64,000 bases of DNA from Castor canadensis (taxonomy: Eukaryota > Chordata > Mammalia > Rodentia > Castoridae). The translations under genes were made by a program, and so were the position numbers. The DNA lies in the NCBI RefSeq assembly GCF_047511655.1, contig NC_133392.1:160756542-160820541 (forward strand), written 5' to 3'. Positions within the stretch are counted from its first letter, which is position 1. Every line of letters begins with the position of its first letter. The notes beneath the pieces are model-generated. The model did no database searches and had not been told where the DNA came from. It saw nothing but the letters and a program-made list of their open reading frames with translations. Below are positions 9,609 to 59,970 of the stretch, piece by piece.

Positions 9609-12600
9609 GTTTTGTTTTGCTTTGTTTTATTATTGGTGTTGTGCTGGATGGGGGTACTTTAGAGTATTTGCAAAAGTTCTTACAATGGATCAAATACATC
9701 ATATTTGAATTCACCAGTGCTCTCTTTCATTCTCCCTCCCCAATTACCAGAACAGTCTCAACAGGTATCATCTTTGCATTTATTTACATGTGTATACATT
9801 ATTTGGGCCACCTCCCCCTCCCCCACCACCCCCCCACACACCCCGGGCAGAGCCTGTTCCTCCCTCTTGTTCTCCAATTTTGTAAGAGAAAAAAACATAA
9901 AAGATAATAAGAAAAACATGGCATTTTTGCTAGTTTGAGATAAAGACAGCTATACAGGGAGATTCCTTGTGTTGTTTCCATGCACGTGTGTATTACAACC
10001 CAAACTGGTTCATCTCAACCAGACCTCTTCACTCCTTCCTAGTCCCCTTCGCATAGTGGCCTCAGTCAGTTTAAGATTACTGTATTTGTTCCTATACAGT
10101 GATTACATCAATGACCTTCAAGTTTTTGGTTTCCTTCCCTTGCCCTATCCCTTCTGTGCAGTGTCCCCTTAGCATGACCCATGTCCAATAATATTGATGC
10201 ATTTGTTTCAGGTCTATAATCTGCATGAGGGAGAACATGTGATTTTTGGCCTTCTGAGCCTGACTAACTTCCCTTAAGATAATGTTCTCCAGTTCCATCC
10301 ATTTACTTGTAAATGACAAAATTTCATTCTTCTTCATGGCTGAATAAAATTCCATTGTGTATAGATACCACATTTTCTTGATCCATTCGTCAGTGGTGGG
10401 GCATCTTGGCTGTTTCCATAACTTGGCTATTGTGAATAGTGCCGCAATAAACATGGGTGTGCAGGTGCCTCTGGAGTAACCTGAGTTGCAGTCCTTTGGG
10501 TATATCCACAGGAGTGGAATTGCTGGGTCACATGGAAGATCTATGATTAATTTTTTAAGGAGCCTCCATATTGTCTTCTGTAGTGGTTGTACTAGCTTAC
10601 ATTCCCATCAGCAGGGTATGAGGGCTCTTTTCCCCTGTATCCTCACCAACATCGGTTGTTGCTGGTGTTCGTGATGATAGTTATTCCAACAGGAGTGAGG
10701 TGGAATCTTAGTGTGGTTTGGATTTGCATTTCCTTTATGGTCAGGGATGGTGGGCATTTTTTTCATGTGTTTTTTGACCATTTGGACTTCTTCCTTAGAA
10801 AAAACTCTGTTTGGTTCAGTTGCCCACTTCTTTATTGGTTCATTGGTTTTGGGGGAGTTTAATTTTTTGAGCTCCCTGTATATTCTGGTTATCAGTCCCT
10901 TGTCTGATGTATAGCCAACAAATATTTTCTCCCACTCTGTGGGTGGTCTCTTCAGTTTAGAGACCATTTCTTTTGCTGTGCAGAAGCTTTTTAATTTCAT
11001 GTAGTCCCATTTGTCCATCCTTTCTCTTGGTTGCTGGGCTCCTGGAGTTCTACTGAGGAAGTCTTTGCCTATACCTATTGCTTCCAGAGTATTCCTTGCT
11101 CTTTCCTGTACTAACTTCGAAGTTTCAGGTCTCATATTAAGGTCCTTAATCCACTTTGAGTTGATACTAGTACAGGGTGACAGGCAGGGATCTAGTTTCA
11201 GTTTTCTGCAGGTAGATATCCAGTTTTCCCAGCAACATTTGTTGAAGAGGCTGCCTTTTCTCCATCATATAGTTTTTCACACCACTGTTGAAAATTAGGT
11301 GAACATAGGTGCATGGATTCATATCCTGGTCCTCTATTCTGCTCCTCTGGTCTTCAATTTTATTGATATGGTTCTTTAATACAGTTTGACATCGGGTATC
11401 GTGATACCTCCAGCATTGCTCTTTTTCTCAGAATTGCCTGGCTCTTTGCGGTCTTTTGTGTGTCCAAATGAACTTTAGGGTAGGTTTTTCAATTTCTGTG
11501 ATGAATGTCATTGGGATTTTGATGGGAATTGCGATGAACACGTAAATTGCTTTTGGTAGTATAGCCACTTTTACTATGTTGATTCTGCCAATCCATGAGC
11601 ATGGGAGATCTTTCTACCTTCTACAGTCTTCTTCAATCTCTTTCTCCAGTGGTTTGTAGTTCTTCTTGTAGAGGTCATTTACATCCTTTAAATTTATTCC
11701 TGTATATTTGATTTTTTTAGGCTATTGTAAATGAAATTGTTTTCATATATTCTTTCTCAATTTGTTCATTGTTGCTGTATAGAAAGGCCACTGATTTTTT
11801 TAAGTGGATTTTGTATCCTGCTACATTGCTGAAGCTATTTATGATGTCTAGGAGGTGTTAGGTAGAGTTTTTTGGGTCTTTAAGGTGTAAGATCATGTCA
11901 TCTGCAACTAGGGGTAGTTTGACTACTTCTTTACCTATTTGTATTCCTTTTATTTCTTCTTCTTGCCTTATCACTCTGGCTAGGAATTCTAGAACTGTGT
12001 TGAATAGGAGTGGGGAGAGTGGGCACTCTTGTCTTGTTCCTGATTTTAGGGGAAATTGTTTCAGTTTTTCTCCCTTAAGTATGATGTTGGCTATAGGTTT
12101 GTCATATTTAGCCTTTATAATGTTGAGGAACATTCTTTATATTCCTAGTTTTCTTAGAGCCTTTATCATGAAGCGATGTTGAATCTTATCAAAGGCTTTT
12201 CTGCATCTGTTGAGATATCAAGTGGTTTTTGTCTTTGCTTCTATTAATGTGCTATATTACATTTATTGATTTGTATATATTGAACCATCCCTGCAACCCT
12301 GGGATGAAGCTGACTTGGTCGTGGTGAATGATCTTTTTGATGTATTGTTGAATTCAGTTTGCCATTATTTTGTTGAGGATTTTTGCATCAATGTTCATTA
12401 AGGAGATTGGCCTATAGTTCTCCTTTTTGGAAGTGTCCTTGTCCAGTTTGGGGATGAGTGTAATACTGGCTTCACAGAATGAGATTGGCAGTGTTCCTTC
12501 CCTTTCTATTTCATGGAACAGTTTAAGGGGTGTTGGTATCAGTTCTTCTCTAAAGGTCTGGTAGAATTCAGCAGAGAATCCATCAGGTTCTGGACTTTTC

Positions 12601-13772
12601 TTTTTTGGGAGATTATTGCTGCTTCAATTTCATTATGTTTTATAGATCTGTTTAGGTGGTTAATATCCTCTTGGTTCAGTTTTAGATGGTCATAAGAATC
12701 TAGAAATTTGTCTATTTCTTCAAGATTTTTGAATTTATTGGAATATAGGTTCTCAAAGTAGTCTCTGATGATTCCCTGGATTTCCTTGGTGTTTGTTATC
12801 TCCCCTTTTTCATTTCTGATTTTACTAATTGGGTTTTTTCTCTCCTGACTTTAGTTAGATTTGCCAGGGGCTTGTCAATCTTGTTTATTTTTTCAAAGAA
12901 CCAGCTTTTTGTTTTTTCAATTCTTTGGAGGTTTTTTGTTGTTGTTGTTCTCTATTTCATTAATTTTAGCCCTTATTTTTACTATTTCTCTCCTTCTGCT
13001 TGTTTTGGGTTTAGCCTATTTTTGTTCTTCTACAGTTTGAGATGTAGCATTAGGTCATTTATTTGAGATCTTTCTGTGTTTTTGATATTTGCACTCATGA
13101 CTATAAACTTTCCTCTTACGACTATCCCATAGGTTCTGATAAGTTGTGTTTTCATTTTCATTAAATTCCAAAAACTTTATTTCCTCCCTTATTTTTTCGA
13201 GACCCACTGATCATTGAGCAACCTCCAATTGTTTGAATATTTTCTGCTACTGCTTTTGTTATTGAGTTCTAGTTTTATTGCATTGTTATCTGATAGAATG
13301 CAGGGATTTATTTCTATTTTCTTGTATTTGCTGAGACTTGCTTTGTGCCCTAAGATATGATCTATTTTGGAGAAAGTTCCATGGGCTTCTAAGAATATAT
13401 ATTGTACTGTTTCAGGGTGAAATATTCTGTAGACATCAGTTATGTCCACTTATCTATGGTGTCATTTAATTCTAGGATTTGTCTGAATGACCTATCTATT
13501 GGTGACAGAGGGGTATTAAAGTCTTCCACTACCACTGTGTTGGGTCTACACGTGATTTTAAGTCCTTTAGTGTATGTTTAATGAAGTTGGATGCACTGAC
13601 ATTGGGTGCATATAGGTTGATAATTATTATTTCCTTTTGATATATTGTTCCTTTTATTAGTATGAAGTGACCTTCATTGTCTCATTTGACTAATGTAAGT
13701 TTGAAGTGTACTTTGTCTGATGTAAGTATTACTACTGTTTTCAGGGGCTATCAGCTTGGTAAATCTTCTTTG
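9609..13772 (-). mobile_element. 5'-truncated L1 retrotransposon, non-functional
   Basis: Read on the - strand it holds the end of the endonuclease domain (about 13449-13189), the reverse transcriptase domain (about 12700-11850), the C-terminal part (about 11135-10092), the 3' UTR and an A-rich tail (T-rich at 9609-9630 on +). A 13-bp duplication 'gtggctgaccctt' bounds it at 9596-9608 and 13773-13785. The usual FADD motif of the reverse transcriptase reads VADD (11897-11908), and SDH of the endonuclease reads SDN. ORF2 is broken into many frames, so the copy is dead. The sequence begins within the endonuclease domain, as expected for incomplete reverse transcription. Confidence 0.92.
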
Positions 13773-17562: not shown

Positions 17563-20313
17563 CAGCAGCCTGGCAGCAGGCTCTAAGACTTGGACTTGGA
17601 TCATCCTGGGCCTGTTTCCACATCTGGACCAGCAGACCCTTGAACTCCCTCCCATGATTAACTGGAGACATCAGGAGAGACTGGGTATTTTTCTAGAAAA
17701 AATCCACTGGATGGGGTCAGAAGGGGAAATTGACAGAAACTACTGAATCCTGAGTACTTGTTGGCTTCCTGGGAGTCAGTAGTAGAGGACCCCTGGAGCT
17801 GAGGACCTTGTGTGGTCAAAGGGAGGGCCACCTAAAGAACTCAGTGTAGGGCTGGGTTCCCAGAACAGCACAGGAGGGTCCTGCTGGGTAACAGAAAAGA
17901 CCAGAGAGAAAGTAGAAGAGCTAGAGAGCCAAGGATGCTCCACTTAGGAGGAGAGCGAGCCAGGTACAGAGATGCTCCAACAGCAGCACCAGAATGCCTT
18001 GTAATCTCACCACATGCCCCAGTACAGCACCTGCGATGAACATGGTTCATCCCAGATGGCAGTGGACAGGCCCAGGCATCCCACCAACAGGCCCATCCTC
18101 ACACCCTGAGCTCTGGGAGAAGCTTCCACTTGTCACTAACACATGTTTAACGCACTGCTTTCACTCTCTGGTGCTCTGCCAAGATGGTGGGAACCTGAGG
18201 AGGCAAAACTAATTTTCTACAGAAAATGTCTTTTCTCACTCCAATCCTGGCCTGCAGAGAAAATTCTGAAGGCCATTCAAAAAAAGAGCCACCCTCTCTG
18301 GCCCTCACCTGTCACCCATGCCCACCAGTCCTTCACTAGAGCATTCTGAGTTCCTGGATCCCAGATGGCCCCTGTCCTGGGCAAAGGCCCCCTGATATGC
18401 TGTCTGCCAGCACCAGCTGCCTGTTCTCCTGTCTCATGCTGCCCTCTGGTGTCAGGCACAGAGACATCCAGGTTCCATTGGGTCAAGACACCTGGGATAG
18501 CTTTTCTGTGTTGGCTCAGTGCCTGGCCTCTCCAGAAACCCTATTACCAGCTGTGCTTGTCAGAAGTGGGGTGGCTGAGCCTGCAAGGCTAGGATGCCAT
18601 GCCACCTCCAAAGCCAGCATGTTCTTCTTTCCCTGTCATCTTCAGGAGACCCTGGGATCTAGCAGCTGGTCTCTGCTCAGCAGCTCCAGTCCCAGCCACA
18701 GGTGTGATGCTTTACTCAGATCCCGATCTGAAGTGGTCCTCGTTGTCAAGGTCGGGGCTGGGGCTTGGGAGGCAACCGGAAATTTCAGGTCCGGACCTCA
18801 GGGGCTCAGCAGTAGCCCTGCTATTTCAGGGCATCAGATGTCCCTGATGCTGAAGTCTTAGCTGCAAAGTTTTTTTTTTTAAGTCACTGCTAGAAAAATC
18901 CACCCAGGAAATGAAACGCAAATGGAAGATGTTACCCTTCAGCCGTGGTGTCCTGCCTGTGTGTACCAACGGCACATGGGCTGCTGTGTACAGAATACAA
19001 CACTGGACCAAATGCAAAATTCCTGCCAATGATGATGTCAGTAACAACCCAGTGCGGTTAGGATAACGCACTTGCCATTAACCAGGGAAGATTGGCCTCA
19101 GGTTCAGAAGAGTGGCGCGAGTCACGCTGGAGCCAGGCAGAGAGAAGAGCCTGGTTTGGGATGCCACTGGCCACAGGGAGGGAGAAGGCTGGTCCTGGAG
19201 TCCTGGGGATTCCTTTTCATCTTCACCAGAAAAGCAGAGTCATTCAGCGAATCCCAACAGTGTGGCGCCCCCCTGGAGGTTGTGGGCTTGGCTCAGGAGG
19301 TGCGCAAATATTAAAATGATGGTATCTGTGTTCCTCTCTGTGGGAGGGTGCCTTGGCAATAGACCCCCTGGCAATAGAGTCAAAGGATTTTTAGTAAATT
19401 AAAAAATTATTCCGAAGAACATTTCTCTCTGACTGAGAAAAAGGCAGGGTGCCTCTGTTTTCCTTAGAGGAAAATGTTCTAGGAAACCTCTTTGTCACCA
19501 GGTACAGGCAATAGGCCTTCGTTCCCGGAAATTTCAACCGAAATCATGAAAAAAGAGAGAAGAAAGTGCTAAGCAGCCCACAAAAGTGGGGGACAAAAGA
19601 CCCTCCAGGGCAGCATCTTATGTCATGTTCTCCCCATGTGCATATGTATGAGTGCCTGTGTGCACCCATGTGCACAAGAGTGCATAGTGATTGATTTAAT
19701 CTTGCCCAAATGAAGGCCTAATGTTTGTTCTCATCTGCCAGGTGGGGGTGACCTGCCTGACTGGACTGCCACTGTTTGCCTGAGGACTTGCTCACCATGG
19801 ATAGTCCAACAATGTGATTTAAGATAGGAACAACCATGCCTGATGGCCTAGAGTGTAGTTTGCCAGGGAAGGGTCTTGTGTCCATCAATATCAGTCAACC
19901 AAGAAACTGTTACTGATCACGCAGGTGATCAATCCGGCTTGCCTAAGGGACAGATGACTAACAAGAATGTGGATTAGGGAGGCTCAGAAGTGCTCCTGGT
20001 CAGGGAGACTTCATGCATGTTGTGACACCTCAGTGAGGGACAGCAGTCCCTAAAGAGGGCACAGAAGAACTCTGCTTAGGTGCTTTTCCTGGACCCAGCC
20101 ACACATGTCCCTTCCTTTGGCTGGACTTACCCTGGGTTCTTTCTCCATAAGAAACCATCACTGTGAGGGTAATGGTTGTCAGAAAGCTCTGAGAGTCCCC
20201 CTAGGAATTACCAAACCTCAGGGTGGTTCTGGGCCTTGGGGTTGATTGGTTTCAGAAGTGCTATCATGTGTAGGCTGAGTCTTTTCACTTGGTGATGGCC
20301 AGAACGCACACAT
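17563..20313. other. Gene-free stretch, nothing recognised
   Basis: The reading frames here (longest 154 codons at 18397-18861) have no family resemblance, no conserved splice context and no CpG island. I regard them as chance. Confidence 0.45.
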
Positions 20314-20418
<105 letters not shown>

Positions 20419-21188
20419 ATCTCCTTGTCCACCTTCTAAATCTGGCACAACTCCACCTTTTGGAATGGTAACAGTGTATGTCCTGGAACTGACACATTCA
20501 ATGGAAAAAATTATCCCCACCTTTTCCCCTCTAAACTCAGAACAACTGAATTAGCCTGAGAATGTCCAAGAATTCCAGATGGTTGTCATAAAATCCTCAA
20601 CAAGGCACAAAGCTTGTTAGCTGCAATTTGTGTGTGAGCCGAAACCCCACAAACCCAGAGATGCTTGTGTAAGACCAATAAGAAGGCAGGCCTTGCCTTC
20701 GCTCTGTGCCGGACTGTGAAAAGGAGGAAGCAAGATGGCAGGGAAGCTTACGCTCAAACAAGACAAGGTGAAACCATTTCATTACATGGCCGGGAGAGAA
20801 CCAGGGAGTGAGCAGCCTTGGCAAAGCCAGACCCGAGAGGCAAGGTTATGTCTGTGACATTAGTTCACACCTGTTAGCTGCTGTGAACAGGTGCAGGTAG
20901 CCCTGGCTAGGCATACAGTGTCATTCATCCAGCACTTCGCTGCCTCCAAATGCACTGAACCTGGATCTGCTCTGGGTTCTTAGGGAACAGCAGGACAGGA
21001 CCTCCCCACCTCACCCCACTCCCTGCCACAGGAACCTTAACAAAGGCCCTTCAAGGAATTGGGGATTCCTCCATGCAGACAAGCCAGGGTGGACAGAGAC
21101 AGACTGACTGCCATTCTGCTCCTGGATCATCAAGGAAGGCAGACCCCCTACACTGACCAGCCTCCAGCAGGACTCAGATCTGCCTTTC
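20419..21188. other. Gene-free stretch, nothing recognised
   Basis: No gene or nameable repeat is visible. Confidence 0.45.
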
Positions 21189-21535: not shown

Positions 21536-24364
21536 CTCCTTTATTCAACTTAATGTTTTTTTGGTTAACTAGTTAATAATGTTTGTTTCTTTCCTCTCAG
21601 TTGTTTGTGTATTCTTGTAGTGAAGATTATACTTTACACAGACTGGGATACTGCAGAATATTTTATCCAACTGAAGAGTACTCATCCTTCTTAAGATGAC
21701 ATGCAATACTCACCAACAAAGATCCAAGACTGTTCCTACCTAAAATACACACAATGACAGGAGCAGTCTGCCTTCCTTTTGACCTGTGCATTGGCTATGC
21801 TTTTGTGAATGAACCATCTTCCCCCTGGACACATTTGTCCTCTCTGAGGTCAGCCACATGGTATGGGGAAATGGACAGATTCCTCCCAATATCACCTTGT
21901 TCCTGAGGCCAACAATGCTGGTGCCAAACCTCTTTGGTCCCCTATCTCTGAAAGCAATACAATGTGTACTGATGGCTCATCCTGAGGGTGAAAGAAAGGC
22001 CTTCATGCTCTATCCACCCTCTGGGGCAGACACTTGCCTTCCTGTGCATCTGCTAGCTGCCTTTGTTGCCCCCTCAGAGGGCCTTCATCCCCTCTGGACA
22101 GCCGAAAAAGGGTGCTGGCACTTTATAATGATCTGTGGCCCAGAAGACACCCATCGATTTGAAATTTAGTTCTGAGAGGCCACATGTGAGAATGAAGCTT
22201 GAAGCTGAGTTAAGGTTAGGCATCCTCAGTCCTAACTGGACCCAATCCTGCCAAAATGTATCAGCCAACACAAGCAAAGGCCAGCTGTGTGCCTTCCCTG
22301 GGTACCTGTCTCTATGTCAGAGTTGGCAGGAGTGTGCAATGTCTGGATCTTCATGTGGGTGAAGCCTTGGACACAGATAGCTTCCTCAGAACTGATTCTT
22401 CCTGTGAACAGCCACGTGGCAGTACGCCCGACAGAAAGAGGACGGCCACAAGTTAATGATCACCACGTTCAGGGGGAAATTTGCTTCTTCAGCAGATGTC
22501 CCCAATGTGTCACTGACATTAAGCCCAATGAGCCAAAAGGGTGAGGGGTGCGGAAGCATCTGTGTGGGAGGCAGGCACAAGTCTACAGCAAGAGGCTAAT
22601 TCACAAGTCCGGCTCTGCAGCCTGAGCCTTGCTTCATGCTTAATGTGATCACAGGCTGCTTTCCAGTGCCACCCGTGCCCCCCACTGCAAGGCAAGGGAG
22701 CTCTCAAAACAGAGCTTTTCATCTTTGTGTGTTTCTTCTTACCAGGTCCAAAGCTTCTCAGAAAATGGTATCTTTATTATGGAGCTGAAAATTTAGCCTT
22801 CTCTAGGCTCTGCAAATCCCAGGCTTTTTATTCAAAGGACCTTGCAACTGTGATCCTGCTGCAGAGCTGGTAGAGAGCTGATAATGAATGTGGCTTAGCT
22901 TTTGTGCCCGGGTGATGTCTGAGTTCACAATGTGTACATTCAGTTCAGATCTGCAGTTTCACTGATACCCAAGTGGAGAGGGTTCTTGGCATTGTCGGGG
23001 CAAGTAGAAACTGTCGCATTTCCCAATCACCCCTCACTGCCCTGGGGTGATCCTCTGCTGGCCTTCCGTGTGCATCTTGACTCTCTGAGTAGATCACAAC
23101 TTGCCAGGAGCCCTACCTGCCCACCCACCAGCTCTCACCAGTGCCCTGTGGTGTTGTCTGCAGTATTTCTCGTCACCCTGAAACTCACATCTAGCACCAG
23201 ATGAAAGTTTGGTGAACCTGACAAACAGATTCCAATAGAAGTTCCAGGATGTGGGAAGATAAGACTACTCCTGGTTGAGGCTGGTATACTTCCACACATC
23301 TGATGCTAGTGGAAAACAAGGATTTTCTTTGTATATCTGTCCATTCAGATGACTGATTCAAAATGATTTTGAGTTGCTCTCAATTACAGAAGCACAATTA
23401 GATTTTCTGAACACACAATTAATTGAAGATAAAAGATAGAAGCTAAGAATAAAAAGATAAGTGAACAAGAAAGAAAGCAGTGTAGAGAAACCTAAGGGAG
23501 CATTGCTCTGCATTTCCTGCCACCCAGAAAAACAGAAGAAGGGGAGGGGCTGTGAGCCTGGGGAGAGTATCATAATCCACAACTCAAGCCACTGATAACA
23601 CCCTTCCTCAATCCCAAAGTCACTGCAACAAGAGGGGGTATAATCAACCCACAGCTGTATCCTGATCCCAGCAGGTTGTAGAATATCTGAAGCAGAAAAT
23701 AGTTTATTGTGCTCAAACATTTTAATGTCACAGGCTATTGATTAGTCTACAAAGCATGCTGCAAAAATTCCATGAATGTTTAGCCCCTAGTGACAGACCC
23801 AAGAGGGCTTCCACCCAATGTCCATACCACAACCTCTCTCCCTGCCCCTCCTCTATCTCTGTGCACTGACATTTTCTACACACATAAAACCCAATTCCAG
23901 TGCCACTGACTCCTGAAAGCTTTTCCTCACCAACCTGACTCTACAGACTGTTTCCTGCTGGACACCCATGGCTGCTGCATGACTGCCAGGCTCCAGGCTC
24001 TAATCCCACTCATCCTTGGTCCACATCCTCTCACCTCTTAGGATCTTGGCAAACATGTGTGGGATCAACTCATGTGAGAAATGAAGGTATTTTCTAACAG
24101 CAGGTGGAAATCCTGCTGAAGGTCAATATTACCCAGCAAAGCTAGGAGTAAGGGGAGCTACCAAGAAAACTTTCATAGGGTCAAGTAAGAATATTTTAAA
24201 AGTAGGCTGCAGGCTATCGTGGCTGCTTGTTGCCTTCCCTCTCTATTACATCATTCTTTTAACTGTGAAAGGTCAGAGGATGGGAGGAATCCCTCATCAA
24301 AGAGGCCGAGTCTCTGGCAGAAATAAGACGTGCTCTGGCTGGGTTGCACAGTGAAGGAGGCTAT
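21536..24364. other. Gene-free stretch, nothing recognised
   Basis: No gene, CpG island or repeat that I can name. The base composition is ordinary. Confidence 0.45.
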
Positions 24365-25187
24365 TGACCACTAATCAGTCAAAAATGCTCTTCGACCTCT
24401 CATCAGCTGCTTGGTATTTGTCAAAGGCAAATACTGCACTGTGGACATAACCGGTGATTAAGCAGTGAATTTGTGGTATGGGCAACCATACAAATTCCTC
24501 GGAATCCGCAATCCTTGGTCTCGCTGAATGTTTTGTCAGCACCACCATCCATTCCACAAATGTTATTCAGACAGCACTCAGGAGCTAAGGCAGCAGGATG
24601 GCAAGTTCGAGGCCAGCATGGACCACTGAGCAAGATCCAATCTCAAATTTTTAAAAGGGAGAAAGGAGATAGGGGGGTGGCTCAGTGGTAGAGCACTTGC
24701 CTATGGGAATATGAGATCCTGAGTTCAATCCCAATACCAAAGGAAAAAAAAATGTTATTCATGGCACGACCAGCAAGTCCAGCCACTGTGCTGGACCCAT
24801 GTCCTCCAGGCTTACAGTCTGTGTGGGAGACAACTGCACACAGCCACGTGTGGACCTCTCTCATGTTGGTGGTAAGATTACTGTGCTCTTCATCCTGGAA
24901 GAGCAGGGGGCACAGGTGATTGGAAATAAAGAAACAAAGTGGACATGAGGAACCCAGAGAGCCTTGCCAGGGAAGGCAGCTGCAGTTCTGTTTGGAACTC
25001 TTACAACCCAGCAACAAGGGAGGAGAGGAGAAGGAGGGAGGGTGAATTCCAGAAAGGCCTCTCCCCATCTTCAGTACCTTCCTGCCTCCTCAGAGGGTGA
25101 CCTGTCCAGCCCAGAGGGCTTCTGGACCTCAGTTACTTCTGAAGAGTCCCTGCATGTTTTCTCCTGGTGGGCCCAGAAGGGTGGAGG
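24365..25187 (+). repeat. Left arm of an 823-bp inverted duplication
   Basis: The reverse complement of 27098-27919 matches this segment along its whole length. I found five substitutions (24370, 24381, 24452, 24622, 24766) and one G-run length difference near 24906-24910. Both outer and inner edges are sharp. The arm includes a composite SINE at 24573-24752. Confidence 0.95.
24573..24752 (+). mobile_element. Composite B1-ID SINE inside the left arm
   Basis: B1-like text ('ggcaagttcgaggccagca') is followed by an ID-like body ('ggtggctcagtggtagagca') and an A-tail. The same SINE appears in reverse in the right arm, so it predates the duplication. Confidence 0.75.
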
Positions 25188-25445
25188 AAGGAAAAGATGA
25201 TCCCCAGTTACCAAGGGGCCTCCTCTGACCTCCCTGAATAGATCTGATGTCCTCCACTCCATGTAGCTTTTCCCATGTGACTCACTGAAAAGGTAAAGTT
25301 CTTTATGTGACTGTTGCAATAATATCCATACTCCCCCTGGTCCAAATCAATCCTCTAAAAAGGCAAACAGGGAGACTCAGGCCATCACTGTAACCCCAAC
25401 TCCTGGCCCTGTCCTGGGTCCACAATGGGAGCTCAGTGAAGTTCA

Positions 25446-25469
25446 CTGAATGAATGAATGAATGAATGA
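25446..25469. repeat. (GAAT)n microsatellite
   Basis: About six copies of a four-base unit. Confidence 0.9.
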
Positions 25470-26249
25470 GCCTTGCTCTAAAATGGAAACAAGACAAAAG
25501 TGCTCAACCTACTACCATGTCCAGATAGAAAAGGAAGAAAAGCTAAAAAGCTGTAACATTAAATCTGGCAGAAGGGCATCTGGTCACACCTTCCTGAGAA
25601 CACAACCGGCAAGTCCAAAGGGCCTCACACATAGTCAGTCAGCATACATTCAGCCAGTGCCTACTATGTATGGGTGCCAGGCTAAGTCTCATAGATCCCA
25701 TTCAGACTGTCGGCCTTAATCCCTGAGCAGTGGGAAGCACAGAAGAGGTTTAGCAGGCTCCTCTACCATTGATTGGTGATTATCTCAGCTGCCAGGCACA
25801 GAGCAGAGCAGAGGAGGGGAAGGACCAGTCTAGAATTAACAGGAATTAATTGGGTGTGGACAAAGAGAGAGAAAGAGAGACAGAGAGAGAGATGGAGGGA
25901 GGAGAGAAGAAGAGAGGGAGGGAAAGGAATGTCAAGGGGCCCTGGGGTGGGGCCTGAGCTGCCTGCTCCAAAAACCATTCCCATCCCTGGCTGGGAATGA
26001 GTGAGCAATAGAGCACTCCTGCGAGGAAAACCTAGCATCTTTTAGGATGCTGACTTTGTTTACCAGAAAGTCAGCACACCTATCTACCTCAATCCTTGCA
26101 TCTGGCGAGAGGAAGATTACAGGAAAACACAGTATAGTGAAAATGAGAGCAAAATTTACTAGGAGAGGAGTACATCTTCAATACACAGAAAGTGGGTTAT
26201 CTCTAGAGTGAGAACACAGTATCAGTGTTTGAGGCTGGAATGTATATTG

Positions 26250-26960
26250 AGGAATTCTCAGCCCAGGTCCATCTGACCCCTAGGATGCAGCCTATGGACC
26301 TGAGTCTTTGTCTTGCTAAATTAAAGAGATTACATATGTGAAATTCCCAGCCCCAGGACCACCTGATGCCTAGGAAGGCTCCTGAGTTTATGCCTTTTTC
26401 TTGCTAAATTAAAGAGATAACCAGGAGGGGGATAAAGGAGAATGATGGACGGGGTGAATTCAACTATGATATATTATAAAAACTGTGTAAATGTCACAGT
26501 GTACCCCCCCCAGCACAATAATGAAAACAGATAGATTAAAAATTAAAGAGATTACCTGTGTGAAATTTCCAGCCCCAGGTTCATCTGATGCCTAGGGTGT
26601 GGTTTACTCCTGAGTAAAGAAAGGATTAAGCTCTTAGGTGAGTGGTGGACTTGAAGTGTAGGCCCCAAAAGTGACCACGCGGAGAGGAGTGATCTGGCCA
26701 AGAGATTCTTGGGAGAGGAAGAGAGCCAAGAGGGGGGGTGGGGGGGCAGGGGCTTAAATACCCCTCAGTGAGACTTGGCATGATCTGATTGGTTAGGATT
26801 TATGGTTCATGCTGATTGGAGATTGGGGCAGGAGAATTCAAGTTCAACTTGAGGCAGGACCGTGACCCTGGGAAACAGAAGCTTAAGGATGCAGTAAGAA
26901 CCGAAACCTATTGGTGCCATTATTGCCAACATGAAGCATCCTGTGATAGCCCATGGCCTT
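26250..26960 (-). repeat. Possible LTR with three ~87-bp repeats
   Basis: On the - strand the part around 26755-26810 has CCAAT-like boxes and a TATA-like 'tatttaag', as in an LTR promoter. Further along that strand, three related units of about 87 bases share 'cagccccagg', 'ctgatgcctagg' and 'aattaaagagatta'. They begin near 26250, 26338 and 26562, the last after an L1 insertion. No viral coding sequence is present. LTR identity is inferred; the repeat units are seen directly. Confidence 0.4.
26419..26539 (+). mobile_element. 121-bp extremely 5'-truncated L1 insertion
   Basis: It matches the last ~110 bases of the L1 at 9.6 kb (both contain 'ggtgaattcaa.tatgat' and a 'gtaccccc..ccagcacaa' end). 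The 13-bp duplication 'aaattaaagagat' flanks it at 26406-26418 and 26540-26552. Confidence 0.8.
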
Positions 26961-27097
26961 GGTGGGCCACTTAGATCCTGAAAGGGACTGTGAACGTTAG
27001 AAAGTTTAATGGTAGTGTGTTTCTCTCGGAGACCTTGAAGAATTCTTCAAGTTCTTTTTCATCTCCCCATCACTGATGGCTAATTGCTACCTGACAA

Positions 27098-27919
27098 CCT
27101 CCACCCTTCTGGGCCCACCAGGAGAAAACATGCAGGGACTCTTCAGAAGTAACTGAGGTCCAGAAGCCCTCTGGGCTGGACAGGTCACCCTCTGAGGAGG
27201 CAGGAAGGTACTGAAGATGGGGAGAGGCCTTTCTGGAATTCACCCTCCCTCCTTCTCCTCTCCTCCCTTGTTGCTGGGTTGTAAGAGTTCCAAACAGAAC
27301 TGCAGCTGCCTTCCCTGGCAAGGCTCTCTGGGTTCCTCATGTCCACTTTGTTTCTTTATTTCCAATCACCTGTGCCCCTGCTCTTCCAGGATGAAGAGCA
27401 CAGTAATCTTACCACCAACATGAGAGAGGTCCACACGTGGCTGTGTGCAGTTGTCTCCCACACAGACTGTAAGCCTGGAGGACATGGGTCCAGCACAGTG
27501 GCTGGACTTGCTGGTCGCGCCATGAATAACATTTTTTTTTCCTTTGGTATTGGGATTGAACTCAGGATCTCATATTCCCATAGGCAAGTGCTCTACCACT
27601 GAGCCACCCCCCTATCTCCTTTCTCCCTTTTAAAAATTTGAGATTGGATCTTGCTCAGTGGCCCATGCTGGCCTCGAACTTGCCATCCTGCTGCCTTAGC
27701 TCCTGAGTGCTGTCTGAATAACATTTGTGGAATGGATGGTGGTGCTGACAAAACATTCAGCGAGACCAAGGATTGCGGATTCCGAGGAATTTGTATGGTT
27801 GCCCATACCACAAATTCACTGCTTAATCACCCGTTATGTCCACAGTGCAGTATTTGCCTTTGACAAATACCAAGCAGCTGATGAGAGGTCGAAGAGCATT
27901 TTCGACTGATTAGCGGTCA
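27098..27919 (-). repeat. Right arm of the inverted duplication
   Basis: This arm is the reverse complement of 24365-25187, one base shorter. It ends about 430 bases before the C1orf174 CpG island. It carries the same SINE in reverse at about 27531-27712. Confidence 0.95.
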
Positions 27920-28339
27920 GAACACCATCTGACACTAAGCGCAGACACAGGGAGAAGCAGAAAGTGGCTTCTGCAGTCGAGCCCTAGCTTACGGAAACTC
28001 TGAAGGACTCAGCGAACCACTGAGCCAAGCGTGTTACGAAACGGACCTCAGCGAGATGAGGTGTGGAATCCAGTACCTCGCTGGTTCTCAACAGCTGGCA
28101 GCGATTACGTTAATTTCCTTTCAAACAGATTTCCTGCCAGTCCCTCATCTGTCGGTTCCCTTCCACATACATCACGGGTACAACCCGGACAAGGGAGGGC
28201 ACCGAGCGCGCACGAGAACTGCAAGTGTCTTAGCTGCCTGCAAAAGCCAGATTCTCCCTAGCAATTTCAGCGGCTCCATCTGGTTAACCTGATGGCGCGT
28301 TGGTAAAGAAGAGCTTAGGATCCTTGCCCCGCGCACTCT

Positions 28340-29262
28340 TTATGCAGTAAGAGGCAAAGGGCCGCGGGTCTCGGCGGGGAACGTTAGTGCTTTAGAGGAC
28401 GGGCGACTGACACCTCTGCTAGCCAAGGCTGCGGGGGGCGGGGCAGAGGGCCCTGCAGCAATTCACTTTGCAACCTTGATGGCTGCACTGGAAACCCTAA
28501 TACTTCTGACCAAACTGCCGGACTTGAACGCTCCCACCTGTAAAATGACAAAAAAGGGAAAATGTCTCATCCATTTCGGGCGCGCAGCTCGGGATGCTGA
28601 GTGCGGCGCCCGGAGCAGCGGCAGCTCGGAGACGAGGGGTGCGGTTGGAGATGGAGGCCAAGGCTGAGCTTCGTTTTAATTCAAAACGGCAGGAGGCCTC
28701 TGGCTCGGGAGGACCGGGAGGCGTGGCCGCCTGCGGGACCTGGACAAGGGTCGGGGTGCAGAGCAAACCTACTGAAGCTGCGCCCTCTTGGGGACCGACA
28801 AGAGCGGCCGCGTTCTCCGCCCACTCCGAGGTCGGCGCCCTCCTGGGGACGTCGTCCCATCCTCGTGCGAGGGCGGAAGAGACCCCTTCCCGGGCTTCGC
28901 AGACACTGCCGGGGCGAGTTAGCAGCTCCAGGACACGTCCATAAACGCGCACAGAAAACTGCCCCTCTCAAACATGGCGTCAATGGTGACGCCCTTTACG
29001 AACTTGACCCGCAGGCCGCCGGACTTCCGGTTCTGACGTCCTCTTCCCCCCGCCCCCCCACGCACTAAGTCCTCCCGGCTGCTCCCCGCCTACGTACGGA
29101 AAGAACTAATTTGTTGGGTCACGTGTCTCAGGACGCCGGGCGGTGATTGGCCACCCTGTAGTGACGTCAGGGGTCGTGGAGGCGCGCGCTGAGGGCCGCG
29201 GGGTTGGGGCGCTGCTGAGAAGCGTTAGGCCGGGGCGCGGGGCGGCGGCTCCGCTCACACTC
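28340..29262 (+). promoter_or_regulatory. C1orf174: CpG island and probable promoter of C1orf174
   Basis: CpG frequency is high from about 28340 through about 29560. Close to the start codon are an ETS-type site (acttccggtt, 29023-29032), a CRE half site (29034-29040), an E-box CACGTG (29120-29125), an inverted CCAAT box (29146-29150) and a full CRE. There is no TATA box. The transcription start probably lies between about 29100 and 29250, by inference from these sites. Confidence 0.8.
29162..29169. promoter_or_regulatory. Full CRE palindrome TGACGTCA
   Basis: A perfect eight-base CREB/ATF site about 95 bases upstream of the C1orf174 start codon. Confidence 0.75.
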
Positions 29263-29277
29263 ATGAGGAGCAGGAAG
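29263..29277 (+). CDS. C1orf174: C1orf174 coding exon 1 (MRSRK)
   Basis: The start codon and four more codons (MRSRK) are followed by a GT donor (gtgagg) at 29278. The human protein begins with the same residues. The frame stays open past the donor, but that is intron read-through inside the CpG island. The exon ends in phase 0, matching exon 2 at 39880. The long first intron (29278-39879) contains the near full-length L1. Confidence 0.9.
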
Positions 29278-29747
29278 GTGAGGGGCCAAGGCCGAGCGGA
29301 AGGGCGCCGGGCCTCCCGCTGTCCGGGGGAGCAGGGGGACCCGAATGCCTGCGCCGAGCGGCGGCCTATGCCTAGCCTCGCCCCCGGGAGTGGGGATTCC
29401 CGGCCGCGCCCCCCGGGAACGGGGGTTCCCAGGCCACGCCCAGGGAAAGGGCTCCACCCACACCCCCTGGCTGGTACTCGTGCTCTGCTCCCCGGGGAGG
29501 GGAGGCCGCTCGCAGATCTGTCCCTCAATTGCTGCCCCCCCATGGACGAGCTTCAGCACGTGACCTCAGCCAGGCCCACCATTGTGTCACCTGCCAAGTG
29601 CAGTGGGAAGGGAGCCACCCCAGGGCGTGGCGGCGGGCGTATGGCCAGCCAGCTGCGTAGGGGTTGCTCTTGGGGAGGGGGAAGTGGGGACCAAAGCACC
29701 AGCCCCCAAGGGGCCTTTGACCAGAATTGAAACACCTTTTGCTAGTG

Positions 29748-29853
29748 GCTTTTTTTTTTTTTTTTGAGATAAGCTCTGGCTGTGTAGCACAGGCTGGCCT
29801 CAAGCCTGCAGTCCTCTTGCCTTCTCCTCTGACTGCCCCGTCACCCAGCCTTA
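29748..29853 (-). mobile_element. B1 SINE
   Basis: On the - strand: B1 body ending in a long A-tail (T-run 29750-29765 on +). 'tgtgtagcacaggctggcct' is the antisense B1 core. It lies in C1orf174 intron 1. Confidence 0.8.
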
Positions 29854-30188
29854 CTTGTGACTTTTAGTCTACAATGTATCTTCTGCAGCCCCTGCACAGC
29901 TGGATCTCTTTACAATGCAGGCAGTCGTGGTTGAATCGTTTAAGCCGTTCACGTGTAGTGATGTTAACAGTTACACTGGCCATTTTTCAGCTCTCTTGGT
30001 ATCCCGTTTTGTCGTCCTCCCCCCCCCCCCCCGTTGTTCCTTTGCATAAATCTTTTCTAATTAGCATTTTAGTTTAATATTTTCACAGTATTTTAACTGC
30101 ATCAACTTCAGAGTTGTACTCTCCTAATTTCGGTGAGATGCAGAAGTGTTACTCATACAGCTCTTTTTTTCTTGACCTATTTTTTGTG

Positions 30189-30283
30189 ATTTTTTTTTTT
30201 TTTTTTTTTTGGTGGGATCAGGGTCTTAACTCAGGGCTTCACACTTGCTAGGCAGGCACTCTACCACTTGAGCCAGTCATTTC
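30189..30283 (-). mobile_element. ID-like SINE
   Basis: Antisense ID body 'ctaggcaggcactctaccac' and a T-run of about 22 bases. It lies in C1orf174 intron 1. Confidence 0.85.
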
Positions 30284-30499
30284 GTTATACGTTATCTACT
30301 AATGCTACCAGCACTGCAATTACGACCTTACATCTGCAGTCACTTCCTTAGTCCCTTAGGGCTTTGCTCCTGCTCCCTTCCTTGTTCTGTGATTTGTAAG
30401 TGTCATGCGCTTCTGTTTGTATTATATGCACATTGTTGTGCATATAACAATGTGAGAGAAGAAGGGAAACACACTTGTGAAGTATCTGGCATAAGGACG

Positions 30500-31204
30500 T
30501 TATTACCGTGACCTGGACTCTTTCTTTGTGTGGGTTTAAATTAGTGTATGTGGTCACTGGCTTCACCCTGAAGAACTTCCTTAAGTATTTCTTGGAAAGT
30601 GAATCTGCAGGCAACAAACTCGGTCAGCCTTTGTTTATCTGGAAATTTATTTTGTCTGCATTTCTGAGGGATAGCTTTGCAGGATATTGGATTTTTGGTT
30701 AGAGGTTTTTCCTTTTCAGTGTTTGAACGATGAAGATGTCACTGTCGGCTTTTACTGTTTCTGCTGAAAAGTCAGTGGCTCATCTCTTGAGGTTCCCTCC
30801 CTGCGGAGTAAGGAGTTGGTTGCGTTTTACTGCTTCTGAGATTTTGTCAGCCTCTTCATTTTTCTTTACTATTTATTCTCTGTTCTTTGGTTCACATGTC
30901 CTCTCTATCTTCAACTTGGCTTATTCTTTCTTCTGTGATTCCTATCTATGGCTGATCCCTTCCTTGCACTTTTAAACTTCAGAATTTCCACATGACATAT
31001 ATTTTCTCTCTTACTGATAGTCTCTGTGTGATGTGACATTGCCCCTTGAACCTGTTTGTAATGGCTGCTTTGACGTCTCTTTATGGTAAATCCAATTCTT
31101 GGTCACTCTCCCAGCAGCTTCTGATGTCTGCTTTTACTCCTGCCTGACCTTTTTTTTTTTTTTTTTTTTTTTTTTTGCATGCTTCATAATTTTTGTGGGA
31201 AAGT
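30500..31204 (-). repeat. Ancient L1/HAL1-like fragment
   Basis: 'tactgtttctgctgaaaagt' and 'ggatattggatttttggtt' follow antisense text of old L1/HAL1 elements. The young L1 at 31215 inserted into it, since the element appears to continue at 38031 (gggcattttagataata). A pure T-run lies at 31150-31177. Confidence 0.5.
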
Positions 31205-31214: not shown

Positions 31215-33635
31215 TTTTATTTTTTTTATTCATATGTACATACAATGTTTGGGTCATTTCTCCCCCCTTTTCCCCCCGCACCCTCCCTTACCCCCCCCAA
31301 CCCCTTGTTACCAGGCAGAAACTATTTTGCCCTTATCTCTAATTTTGTTGAAGAGAAAGTATAAGCAGTAATAGGAAGGAACAAGGGTTTTTGCTGGTTG
31401 AGATAAGGATAGCTATACAAGGAGTTGACTCACATTGTTTTCTTGTGCATGTGTGTTACCTTCTAAGTTAATTCTTCTCGAACTAACCTTTTCTCTAGTT
31501 CCTGGTCCCCTTCTCCTATTGGCCTCTGTCGCTTTAAAGTATCTGCATTAGTTTCTCTGCATTGAGGACAACAAATGCTATCTAGTTTTTTGGGTGTCTT
31601 ACCTATCCTCACCCCTCCCTTGTGTGCTCTCGTTTTATCATGTGGTCAAAGTCCAATCCCCTTGTTACATTTGCCCTTGATCTAATGTCCACATATGAGG
31701 GAGAACATATGATTTTTGGTCTTTTGGGCCAGGCTAACCTCACTCAGAATAATGTTCTCCAGTTCCATCCATTTACCAGCTAATGATACCATTTCGTTCT
31801 TCTTCATGGCTGCATAAAATTCTTTTGTGTATAGATACCACATTTTCTTAATCCATTCGTCAGTAGTGGGGCATCTTGACTGTTTCCATAACTTGGCTAT
31901 TGTGAATAGTGCTGCAGTAAACATGGGTGTGCAGGTGCATCTGGAATAACCTGTGTCACAGTCTTTTGGGTATATCCCCAAGAGTGGTATTGCTGGATCA
32001 TATAATAGATCTATGTTTAGATTTTTAAAGAGCCTCCAAATTTTCTTCCAGAGTGGTTGTACTAGTTTACATTCCCACCAGCAGTGTAACAGGGTTCCTT
32101 TTTCCCCCGCATCCTCGCCAACACCTGTTGTTGGTGGTGTTGCTGATGATGGCTATTCTAACAGGGGTGAGGTGGAATCTTAGCGTGGTTTTAATTTGCG
32201 TTTCCTTTATTGCTAGGGATGGTGAGCATTTTTTCATGTGTTTTTTGGCCATTTGAATTTCTTCTTTTGAGAAAGTTCTGTTTAGTTCACTTGCCCATTT
32301 CTTTATTGGTTCATTAATTTTGGGAGAATTTAGTTTTTTGAGTTCCCTATATATTCTGGTTACAGTCCTTTGATGTGTAGCTGGCAAATATTTTCTCCCA
32401 CCCTGTGGGTGATCTCTTCAGTTTAGAGACCATTTCTTTTGTTGAGCAGAATCTTTTTAGTTTTATGAAGTCCCATTTATCTATGCTATCTCTTAGTTGC
32501 TGAGCTGCTGGGGTTCCATTGAGAAAGTTCTTACCTATACCTACTAACTCCAGAGTATTTCCTACTCTTTCCTGTATCAACTTTGGAGTTTGGGGTCTGA
32601 TATTAAGATCCTTGATCCATTTTGAGTAGATACTAGTACAGGGTGATAAACATAGATCTAATTTCAGTTTTTTGCAGACTGCTAACCAGTTTTCCCAACT
32701 ATTTTTGTTGAAGAGGCTGTCTTTTCTCCATCGTATATTTTTAGCGCCTTTGTCAAAGACAAGTTGGTTATAGTTGTATGGCTTCATATCCGGGTCCTCT
32801 ATTCTGTTTCACTGGTCTTCATGTCTGTTTTTGTGCCAGTACCATGCTGTTTTTATTGTTATTGCTTTGTAATATAGTTTGAAGTCAGGTATCGTGATAT
32901 CTCCTGCATTGTTCTTTTGACTGAGTATTGCCTTGGCTATTCGTGGCCTCTTGTGTTTCCATATAAATTTAACAGTAGATTTTTCAATCTCTTTGATAAA
33001 TGGCATTGGGATTTTGATGGGAATTGCATTAAACATGTAGAATACTTTTGGGAGTACAGACATTTTTTACTATGTTGATTCTACCAATCCATGAGCATGG
33101 GAGATCTCTCCACTTTCTATAGTCTTCCTCAGTCTCTTTCTTCAGAAGTTTATAGTTTTCCTTGTAGAGGTCATTCACATCTTTTGTTAAGTTTACACCT
33201 AGGTATTTGGGTTTTTTTGAGGCTATTGTAAATGGAATTGTTTTCATATATTCTTAATCAGTTCATTATTAGTGTATAGAAATGCTATTGATTTTTCTAT
33301 GTTGATTTTATATCCTGCTACCTTGCTATAGCCATTGATGATGTCTAGAAGCTTCTGAGTAGAGTTTTTTGGGTCTTGAAGGTATAGGATCATATCATCT
33401 GCAAATAGGGATATTTTGACAGTTTCTTTACCTATTTGTATTCCTTTTATTCCTTCTTCTTGCCTAATTGCTCTGGCTAGGAATCCCAGTACTATGTTGA
33501 ATAGGAGTGGAGATAGTGGGCATCCTTGTCTGGTTCCTGATTTTAGAGGGAATGGTTTCAGTTTTTCACCATTAAGTATAATGCTGGCTGTAGGTTTGTC
33601 ATATATAGCTTTTATAATGTTGAGGTACTTTCCTT

Positions 33636-35465
33636 CTATTCCTGTTTTTTTAGAGCTTTTATCATAAAATGGTGTTGGATCTTATCAAAGGCTTTTTCTG
33701 CATCTATTGAGATGATTAAGTGGTTTTTGTCTTTGCTTCTGTTAATGTGGTTTATTACATTTAATGATTTTCGTATGTTGAACCACCCCTGCATTCCTGG
33801 GATTAAGCCTACTTGGTCGTGGTGAATGATATTTTTGATGTGTTGTTGAATTCGGTTTGCCATTATTTTATTGAGGATTTTTGCATCAATGTTCGTTAAG
33901 GAGATTGGCCTATAGTTATCCTTTTTGGAGGTGTCTTTGCCTGGTTTTGGGATAAGTGTAATACTGGCTTCATAAAATGTGTTAGGCAGTTTTCTTTCCC
34001 TTTCTATTTCATGGAACAGTTTAAGGAGGGTTGATATTAGTTCTTCTTTAAAGGTCTGATAGAATTCAGCAGAGAATCCATCAGGTCCTGGACTTTTCTT
34101 TTTGGGGAGAGTCTTGATTGCTGCTTCAATTTCATTTTGTGTTATAGATCTATTCAGGTGATTAATGTCCTCTTGGTTCAGTTTTGGATGATCATAAGTA
34201 TCTAGAAATCTGTCCATTTCTTCAAGATTTTCAAATTTCTTTGAATGTAGGTTCTCAAAGTAGTCTCTGATGATTTCCTGGACTTCCATGGTGTTTATTA
34301 TTGTCTCTCCTTTTACATTCCTGATTTTACTAATTTGGGTTTTTTCTCTCCTCATTTTGGTCAGGTTTGCCAGGGGTCTGTCCGTCTTGTTTATTTTTTC
34401 AAAGAACCAACTTTTTGTTTCATTAATTCTTTGTATTTTTTTTTTTTTTTTGGTTTCTATTTCATTGATTTCAGCTCTTATTTATTTCTCTCCTTCTGTT
34501 TGTTTTGGGATTTGCTTGTTCTTGTTTTTCTAGGAGTTTCAGATGTATCATTAGGTCATTGATTTGAGATCTTTCATTCTTTTTACTATATGCATTCATG
34601 GCTATAAACTTTCCTCTCAGGACTGCCTTTGCTGTGTCCCATAGGTTCCAGTAGGTTGTGTTTTCATTTTCATTGACTTCCAGGAACTTTTTAATTTTCT
34701 CTTTTATTGCATCAATGACCCATTGTTCATTAAGAAATGAGTTATTCAGTTTCCAGCTGTTTGCATGTTTTTTGTCATTATTTTTGTTGTTGAGTTCTAG
34801 TTTTATTGCATTGTGATCAGATAGAATGCATAGTATAATTTCCATTTTCTTATATTTGTTGAGGCTTGCTTTGTGCCCTAGGATATGATCTATTTTGGAG
34901 AAGGTTCTGTGGGCTGCTGAGAAGACTGTATATTGTGTAGAAGTTGGATGAAATGTTCTGTAGACATCAACTAGGTCCATTTGGTCTGTGGTATTTTTTA
35001 GATCTAGGATCTCTTTATTGATTTTTTGTTTGGATGACCTATCTATTGATGAAAATGGGATGTTAATATATGCTTTTAGGTCATTCAGGGTATGTTTGAT
35101 GAAACTGGGTGCGTTGACATTGGGTGCATACAGGTTGATAATTATTATTTTCTTTTGGTCTATTTCCCCTTTTATTAGTATGGAATGTCCTTCTTTATCT
35201 CGTTTGATCAATGTAGGTTTGAAGTCTACTTTGTCAGAGATAAGTATTGCTACTCCTGCCTGTTTTCGGGGGCCATTGGCTTCTTCTTCCAGCCTTTCGT
35301 CCTAAGCCTATGCTTATTTCTGTCGGTGAGATGGGTCTCCTGTAAGCAACAAATTGTTGGATCTTCCTTTTTAATCCATTTCATCAAGCGGTGCCTTTTG
35401 ATGGGTGAATTAAGTCCGATAACATTAAGCGTTAGTACTGATAGGTATGTGGTGATTCCTGTCAT
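33636..35465 (-). pseudogene. L1 ORF2 remnant: endonuclease and reverse transcriptase start
   Basis: Three open pieces (35465-35250, 35211-34471, 34355-33636) carry endonuclease motifs (QETHL, SDHNAI) and the beginning of the reverse transcriptase (SPGPDGF, FDKIQH). Stops or frameshifts separate them, so no complete ORF2 protein can be made. Confidence 0.9.
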
Positions 35466-40860: not shown

Positions 40861-41448
<588 letters not shown>

Positions 41449-41583
41449 TGAAGTTAAGTATAAATTCATTTCCTTTGACACAAAGGAGAAAATAAGATGC
41501 TTTTCTTAACTGGGACACTCCCCCAGCTCCTGGCCTCCCCCATCTGCAGCACTCAGGGTGTCTGGACACCACAGCAGGGTTAA

Positions 41584-41901
<318 letters not shown>

Positions 41902-56600: not shown

Positions 56601-56886
56601 GGTTAAGATGGCAAATTTTACATTATGTGCACTTTACCACAATTTTTTAAAGACTAACAAAAATACAAATCCCAGTCTGAGGCACACTGGATGCTGTCCC
56701 CACTCATGAGTCCTTGCTAGGCACCTGCCCTATGGCCCCCAGGTCTCAATGAGCACTTTGTTCTGACTTCTCCGAGACGTCAGGTCAGGCCACCACCATG
56801 TAGGAGTCACTGAGACCTGAAACAAGACTCTGGTCCTCCTGGGCTCTGCTCCAAGGAGGCCCTCCCCTGCCCACCCAACCACACAC

Positions 56887-57075
56887 CTTCAAACCAGGAC
56901 GGGTCCTGTGCACGGGTCTCGGCAGCGATGTTCTGGCTGGCATTGTGCAGCAGGTCGGCCAGCAGCTTCTGCCGCAGCGGGGCCTGTTCATCTGACAGTA
57001 GCTGCCTTGCTGCCTGGATGACCTCCGCGTGTGGCTCATCAAACACACTGAGGAAGCGACCGATGTCACTCACAT
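56887..57075 (-). CDS. DFFB: DFFB coding exon 3
   Basis: The exon completes Tyr84 and continues VSDIGRFLSVF, QAARQLLSDEQAPLRQ, and ETRAQDPSWFEG. It links the CIDE-N domain to the nuclease domain and holds the helices by which the active enzyme dimerises. 189 bases, phase 1 at both ends, with a GCAG acceptor and a GTGTGT donor, which is weaker than the other donors. Sequence is very close to mouse. Confidence 0.95.
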
Positions 57076-57289
57076 CTGCTTCCAGCAGGGGAACAAACAG
57101 AAAAGTACTCAGAAAAGGCTCCAATCACTCAGAGCCTGGGGACAGCCAGAGCTCAGCCTCCAGATGTCACCAGCCCTCAGCCCAGCCTGGCACCTCCAGC
57201 CAAAAGTGAGGTCACATGACCGTGCAGGAGGAAATCTTGGAAGATTTCTCACCAACCAGGGCTTGGTGAAAGGTTCTTAGACTTAACAT

Positions 57290-57850
57290 AAAACAGGAGA
57301 ACAGAAGAAATAACCCAATAAATTGGACTTCATTAAAATAAAAACCTTTTGCTTTGTAAAAAAATGCTCTTAAAGAGAATAAAAGGACAAGCTACAGAAC
57401 AGATAGTTGCAAACCACAAATCTGACAATGAGCTCATATTCAGAATATACTAGAAAAAAAAAAAAAAAAAAAAACCTTCAAAACTCAACAGATCCAGCCC
57501 AGGCACCGTGGCTTATGACTGTAATCCTAGCTACTCAGGAGGCAGAGATCAGGAGGATGGCAGTTTGAAGTAAGCCTGGGCAAATAGTTTGCGGGATGCT
57601 ATTCTAAAAATACCCAACACAAAAAATGGATGGCCTAGCAAGTGTGAGGCCCTAAATTCAAATCCCAATACTGCTAAAAATAAATTAAAAATTCCAATTA
57701 GAAAATGTACAAAAGATGAAGAAACTATTCACCAAGGAGATCTGCAGGTGGCAAACAAACTCAGAAAAAGATGTCTAACCCCCAAAGCCACCAGGGAAGT
57801 GCAGATTAAGGTCACAGTGAGCGATTACCACACATGCTCTTTATCCCTCA
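57290..57850 (+). repeat. Ancient L1 ORF2 fragment, interrupted by a SINE
   Basis: 'aattggacttcattaaaat' (57322) and 'ccaattagaaaatgtaca' (57694) are collinear with L1 ORF2 C-terminal text. Between them, 57498-57690 is a younger composite SINE. A poly-A run of about 24 bases precedes the SINE at 57451-57474. Confidence 0.65.
57498..57690 (+). mobile_element. Composite B1-ID SINE, ID half shortened
   Basis: B1-like half is complete ('gtggcttatgactgtaatcc'). The ID-like half has lost its A-box region and retains 'gcctagcaagtgtgaggccc'. It lies within the ancient L1 fragment. Confidence 0.75.
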
Positions 57851-58465
57851 GTGGAGGGGAGTCAAGTGCCAGAGAGAGAAGACACAGAGGCAAAGACTGA
57901 GAGACATAGATGGAGAGATGGAGCAGCAGAGAAAAACCAGCCTCTCCAAATGATACCACAACCAAGGAAGGAAAGAAACATCCAGGGATTCTCAGTCCTC
58001 TGATGGCTCCTTCTGCCCAGTCCCCACCCCCACAATGAGACATCTCAGGTGCCTTCATGGTGACCATTTCCTGGAGGGAGAGTGGGTGCTTACAACCTCA
58101 GAGCACATAGGAGATGATCAGTCTCACGGCTGACAGCTCAGCACCTAACCTTGCCGCCAAAGGACACATCCAAGTGGACACTGAGCTTCAGTTTCTCTTT
58201 CTGCCCTTCAGCCAAAGAAGCAGGATTAGATCCAACCCTCAGAGCTTCCTGTCCTCCCTGGGGCACCAAAACCATCTCCTGAAAGCATCATCCCTCTCAC
58301 AGAGCCTGATGACCCTCCTACAGGACTGGCAAAGAAGCACTCTGTCCTGGACCCTCACACAAGAGGCCCAGAACTCACTGTCTAGCTGGTTCTGGAAGGT
58401 AAGACTCTCACCCTGGGGCTTCAATAGACACCCTTGAAGAACCACCTATTACAGCAAGCACCTAG

Positions 58466-58668
58466 CCGAGCACCGGTGGCTCACTCCTGTAATCCTAGCT
58501 ACTCAGGAGTCAGAGATCAGGAGGATTGCAGTTTGAAGCCAGCCCAGGCAAATAGTTTGCAAGACCCTATCTTGAAAAAACCCATCATAAAAAGGGCTGG
58601 TGGAATGGCTCAAGGTGTAGGCCCTGAGTTCAAGCCCCAGTACCACCAAAAAAAAAAAAAAAAAAAAG
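58466..58668 (+). mobile_element. Composite B1-ID SINE with internal deletion
   Basis: B1-like half followed by an ID-like half that jumps from 'ggctcaaggtgtag' to 'gccctgagttcaagcccca'. The same deletion form begins at 61210, which suggests a SINE subfamily. A 19-A tail follows. Confidence 0.85.
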
Positions 58669-59886: not shown

Positions 59887-59960
59887 CGCGGCGTGAGTTC
59901 TGCACCCAGCGCTGAGCAGACAAGGGTTCCAACCCCGCCCGGCCAGATCGCTTTCCTGGT

Positions 59961-59970
59961 GCGCATGCGC
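59961..59970. promoter_or_regulatory. NRF1 site GCGCATGCGC
   Basis: Perfect ten-base palindrome about 75 bases upstream of the DFFB start codon. Confidence 0.8.

Follow-up and report, generated by a model that had tools for sequence, protein, structure and literature searches.

Inverted duplications with near-identical inverted arms and a unique spacer are known from mammalian genomes as dispersed inverted duplications or spaced inverted repeats. A new instance of this kind is present in the beaver, Castor canadensis, in a 64,000-nucleotide stretch of contig NC_133392.1 (assembly GCF_047511655.1, positions 160,756,542 to 160,820,541 of the forward strand), which is called the window here and within which all other positions are counted. 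Its two arms, named A (left) and B (right), lie beside the gene C1orf174, and the outer end of arm B reaches the CpG-dense stretch taken as the promoter island of that gene (Table 1). Compared with the described inverted duplications, no protein domain was found here in the frames tested, which are three frames from the arms and the spacer without a Pfam match. The arrangement is best explained, with fair though not full confidence, by a recent, single, local and neutral inverted templated insertion, in which arm B would have been copied into arm A by break repair or by replication template switching.

Several described mechanisms make copies of a similar kind. Class 2 templated sequence insertion polymorphisms (TSIPs) are genomic copies without a target-site duplication or a poly(A) tract (PMC5110952), which is also what is seen at this locus. 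Their template comes from a distant region, whereas the other copy lies only 1.9 kb away here. They are thought to be RNA-templated, and experimental inserts measured 73-414 bp with a median of 191 (PMC5110952), against 823 bp here. Among the end-joining marks of this class, microhomology of 0-1 bp is found at the present junctions, while a microdeletion or added bases would be visible only against the empty site. Short-range template switching likewise generates a local reverse-complement copy and thereby an inverted repeat (PMC7954356), with a median of 12 and a maximum of 128 nt in a great-ape survey; 823 bp therefore exceeds both the template-switch and the experimental TSIP ranges (PMC7954356, PMC5110952). 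Origin-dependent inverted-repeat amplification (ODIRA) is also a local inverted copy-number gain, but its first stage is an inverted triplication whose junctions are palindromic (PMC10766186), whereas no third copy is found in the window. The inverted gains of that article are said to affect large genome segments (PMC10766186).

The inverted arms and their edges

Global alignment of arms A and B gave 817 identical columns out of 823 (99.3%), and the BLAST E-value of the pair is 0.0, which rules out chance. The arms differ by five substitutions, located at 24370/27914, 24381/27903, 24452/27832, 24622/27662, and 24766/27518 (A/B), and by one indel, the G run at 24906 being one base longer in arm A. 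The original prediction, which had been made from the sequence alone, gave the same arm coordinates, the same five substitutions with one base-run difference, and a spacer of 1.9 kb (measured as 1,910 bp). The alignment check that it proposed was run with an inverted-repeat finder, which recovered the pair as two ungapped blocks, 24365-24909 with 27375-27919 and 24907-25187 with 27098-27378, meeting at the one-base indel.

All four arm edges are sharp, and similarity ends at every one of them. When the regions 22000-24500, 24300-28000, and 27900-30500 were searched against the window, no flank-to-flank match was found. Near-identical inverted arms with unrelated flanks are expected of a recent inverted segmental duplication, which the locus probably is. 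Self-comparison of the window at E-values up to 1e-10, a setting that misses close tandem copies, listed 25 repeat pairs. The remaining 24 are 73.9-89.5% alike, compared with 99.3% for the arms, so the claim that neighbouring repeats are far more diverged is true for repeats of this kind.

The analysis rests on one assembly, and one arm could in principle stem from a wrong join, from a chimeric molecule, or from a haplotype that was not collapsed. Such an artefact is quite improbable. Two alleles of one place would share their flanks, whereas the flanks here are unrelated, which argues against the mistaken joining of two haplotypes that had been suggested at first; other assembly errors are still possible. 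A fold-back chimera would have mirrored the spacer, but the sole inverted self-match found in the spacer is a 26-bp imperfect palindrome at 27030-27055. The window contains no N, and the CpG-biased differences between the arms weigh against random sequencing error, though not against two alleles.

CpG content and the probable direction of copying

The ratio of observed to expected CpG remains level from the island leftward, with 0.82 at 28420-29500, 0.81 at 27920-28419, and 0.82 over arm B's outer 161 bp, and is 0.19 and then 0.04 in the inner parts of that arm. At the other end of the locus, the ratio is 0.11 in the 500 bp to the left of arm A, compared with 0.63 in its outer 161 bp. The outer 161 bp hold 5 CpG in arm A and 7 in arm B, and 1000 bp of the left flank contain 3. 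The 7 CpG of arm B are consistent with the right flank (Fisher p 0.55 for 500 bp and 0.80 for 161 bp) and inconsistent with the left flank (p 0.003 for 500 bp and 7e-5 for 1000 bp). Among 5844 overlapping non-island positions, 3 show a comparable rightward step, with no more than 3 CpG over 500 bp and 7 or more over the 161 bp that follow. The outer end of arm B thus blends into the CpG-dense stretch, whereas that of arm A is a CpG-rich patch beside CpG-poor DNA, which suggests that B is probably the source and A the copy.

Most differences between the arms are related to CpG. Four of the five substitutions touch a CpG, three being CpG in B and CpA in A and one a C/G change that moves the CpG by one base, while the fifth lies outside CpG sites. 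Of the 11 CpGs in arm B, four have no counterpart in A, where three read CpA and one is displaced by the C/G change; of the 8 CpGs in arm A, one has no counterpart in B. The substitutions alone give no direction, since arm A lies away from the island under either history. Judged from CpG content, arm B probably belonged to the promoter margin from the start, arm A would be an inverted copy that is now losing CpGs, and a CpG-rich patch that loses CpGs is unlikely to have sat there for long.

Junctions and the probable route of insertion

When the inverted copy is taken to have been inserted at the left site, no base is shared at either junction, and when it is placed at the right site, 1 bp is shared at one junction. 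There is no flush target-site duplication at the arm sites and no poly(A) or poly(T) run at any of the four arm edges. Near-blunt junctions without a flush target-site duplication are consistent with a templated patch sealed by end joining, or with template switching that used no homology at the ends. The word AAGGA is shared near the edges of the arm A site, which is at chance level, as 12% of random pairs share at least 5 bases. Insertion of a transposon or retrotransposon, L1-mediated events and class 1 TSIPs included, was considered and rejected, given the lack of a flush target-site duplication, of poly(A), and of a Pfam match in the three arm and spacer frames, with no transposon library applied.

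Several points weigh against the copying of B into A. Against the nearest 161 bp of the left flank, which already contain every one of the 3 CpG counted over 1000 bp on that side, the contrast of 3 versus 7 CpG lacks significance (p 0.34). Read on the arm A strand, four of the five substitutions pair an A of arm A with a G of arm B, and GC-biased conversion could also yield these four. Near its edges, the arm B site has the 6-base word CTGACA in common, which would be in keeping with an insertion at that site; 3% of random pairs have as long a match. This longer word sits at the site disfavoured by the CpG evidence; the chance figures hold per single pair while four pairs were examined, and neither word is used as evidence. 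Finally, the direction and the empty site are inferred here from a single sequence.

A staggered-break inversion would produce the same final anatomy as a templated insertion. In this case, the 1.9-kb spacer would have been flipped, and fill-in of the 820-bp overhang between staggered nicks at its two ends would have left an inverted copy on each side. In Drosophila, inversion breakpoints can carry inverted duplications made by this route. It also suits the near-blunt ends, as 0 and 1 bp of shared sequence were counted for one new junction of the two. We regard it as improbable here. It requires two breaks plus a stagger of 820 nt, no sequence feature prefers the flipped over the unflipped spacer, and the two junction pairs brought together by such a flip have words of 3 and 5 bases in common, which is the chance level. 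The terms "inverted duplication" and "staggered breaks" appear in PMC7584159 and PMC5080602.

In the favoured templated insertion, approximately 822 bp of the C1orf174 CpG island margin (arm B) would have been copied in inverted orientation in one recent event and placed 1.9 kb farther from the gene, becoming arm A. The copy would most likely have arisen as a templated patch on a broken DNA end, or through a template switch in replication with subsequent end joining. In its new place beyond the protected margin of the promoter, arm A would since have been losing CpGs to CpA.

Age of the duplication and similarity of the arms

The divergence of the arms is 5/822, or 0.61% (95% Poisson interval 0.20-1.42%). 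If the substitution rate is taken as 4.5e-9 to 1.2e-9 per site per year, this would correspond to an age of approximately 0.7-2.5 million years, or 0.2-5.9 million years with the interval, a figure that is biased upward by the CpG excess and downward by conversion. A short interspersed repeat, which by eye resembles a tRNA-derived, ID-like short interspersed nuclear element (SINE), is present in both arms and must have been in place before the duplication. This element is merely 74% like the copy at 63436-63523 and was therefore probably already old when the arms were duplicated.

The high similarity could also reflect an older duplication whose arms were kept alike by gene conversion, possibly with occasional inversion of the spacer. 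Arm conversion that favours G and C has a precedent in the long palindromes of sex chromosomes (PMC8981503, PMC3723533), and the G of arm B against the A of arm A in four substitutions would suit it. All six differences, moreover, fall within the outer 542 of the 823 columns. With six differences placed at random, the difference-free inner 281 columns are not unusual (p 0.08 for a gap at that end, 0.16 for one at either end, and 0.55 for one anywhere), and the clustering was rejected as a sign of conversion because it is not significant. The arms are also short, and so few differences are explicable without conversion, which makes this history unlikely. Of the three readings in the original prediction (recent duplication, gene conversion, and joined haplotypes), recent duplication is the best supported, while the haplotype join is unlikely and the cruciform proposed alongside them is weak.

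Structure and possible function

Cruciform-forming palindromes have a short or absent spacer, whereas extrusion of these arms would need a loop of 1,910 bases. Given a spacer of 1.9 kb, the cruciform was discarded as improbable (PMC7999016). According to this review, inverted Alus with a 12-bp spacer stall replication, and a 52-bp spacer gives frequent stalling in E. coli only, not in eukaryotic cells (PMC7999016). Impaired replication can destabilise yeast inverted repeats with a 280-bp spacer (PMC7999016), and by analogy this leaves some instability of the present arms conceivable. Elsewhere in the window, a TC tract and the GA tract after it form an imperfect palindrome of about 100 bp at 20312-20420. 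Judged by its structure, it would be a likelier candidate for a cruciform or triplex than the 823-bp arms.

A regulatory role can be imagined if a hypothetical transcript, antisense from the C1orf174 promoter or started in the spacer, passed through both arms. It would fold into an RNA duplex of approximately 820 bp, which might be edited or diced and feed back on the regulation of C1orf174. This is highly improbable, and the duplication is probably neutral. A conserved RNA or tRNA gene was also considered and rejected, as Rfam gave no match at the gathering threshold in the whole window and ARAGORN found no tRNA.

Gene setting and other features of the window

The coordinates of the features of the locus are given in Table 1.

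Table 1. Arms, spacer, and associated features of the inverted duplication (positions in the window)
Feature	Position	Strand	Remarks
Arm A	24365..25187	+	823 bp; probable derived (inverted) copy
Short interspersed repeat in arm A	24649..24736	+	Strand read by eye (A run downstream); 74% over 89 columns to 63436-63523, opposite strand
Spacer	25188..27097		1,910 bp; unrelated sequence
Arm B	27098..27919	-	822 bp; inverted relative to arm A; probable source copy; outer end at margin of CpG-dense stretch, C1orf174 side
Short interspersed repeat in arm B	27548..27635	-	Counterpart of the arm A element by sequence match
CpG-dense stretch	27741..30101		161-bp windows of 5 or more CpG; overlaps arm B at its left margin; taken as C1orf174 promoter island

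The open reading frame at 40861-41451 (+) matches UPF0688 (Pfam PF15772, E 1.5e-58), and a C-terminal UPF0688 segment lies within 41584-41901 (E 1.4e-18). UPF0688 is the family of C1orf174, which is thus placed to the right of the inverted repeat and oriented away from it. The original prediction had put the duplication just upstream of the C1orf174 CpG island; this is right, and the two are even closer, as the CpG-dense stretch starts inside arm B. A start with MRSRK near position 29263, by hand count within the frame 29110-29730, may belong to the first C1orf174 exon; the frame has no Pfam match. A literature search on C1orf174 gave no mention of it among the matches listed, which is not proof of absence.

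At the far end of the window, the minus-strand frames 58848-59240 and 56807-57124 match the Pfam domains CIDE-N and DFF40, and the former is nearest to DFF40/caspase-activated DNase chains in the PDB. Parts of DFFB are accordingly seen on the minus strand at 56807-60601, tail-to-tail with C1orf174. A second CpG-dense stretch at 58921-60601 is probably the DFFB promoter.

The spacer contains a GA-rich tract at 25864-25920 and short degenerate direct repeats. Those at 26253-26596 comprise a 57-bp pair that is 89% alike at a spacing of 222 bp and a second pair at 76%, and give the impression, without a library match, of possibly being a fragment of an old element of the long terminal repeat (LTR) type. 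The longest repeat pair of the window consists of L1-like copies at 9871-13757 and 31336-35282, in the same orientation and 79.6% alike over about 4 kb. Their reading frames are split, and they flank the inverted repeat and the CpG-dense stretch of C1orf174, one on each side. A reverse transcriptase domain (Pfam) lies in 33636-34481, within one of these copies. At 186-283, a 49-bp unit occurs in two perfect tandem copies, unusually clean compared with the diverged repeats elsewhere and absent from the self-comparison list.

Biological meaning

The locus is a clean case of a local inverted copy in which both junctions are readable, and its importance is modest. The copied piece apparently comes from the margin of a CpG island, which suggests that CpG decay begins once such a sequence is moved off its promoter. 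If the direction from B to A is true, the two arms would provide a small natural test of the decay rate of displaced island-margin sequence.
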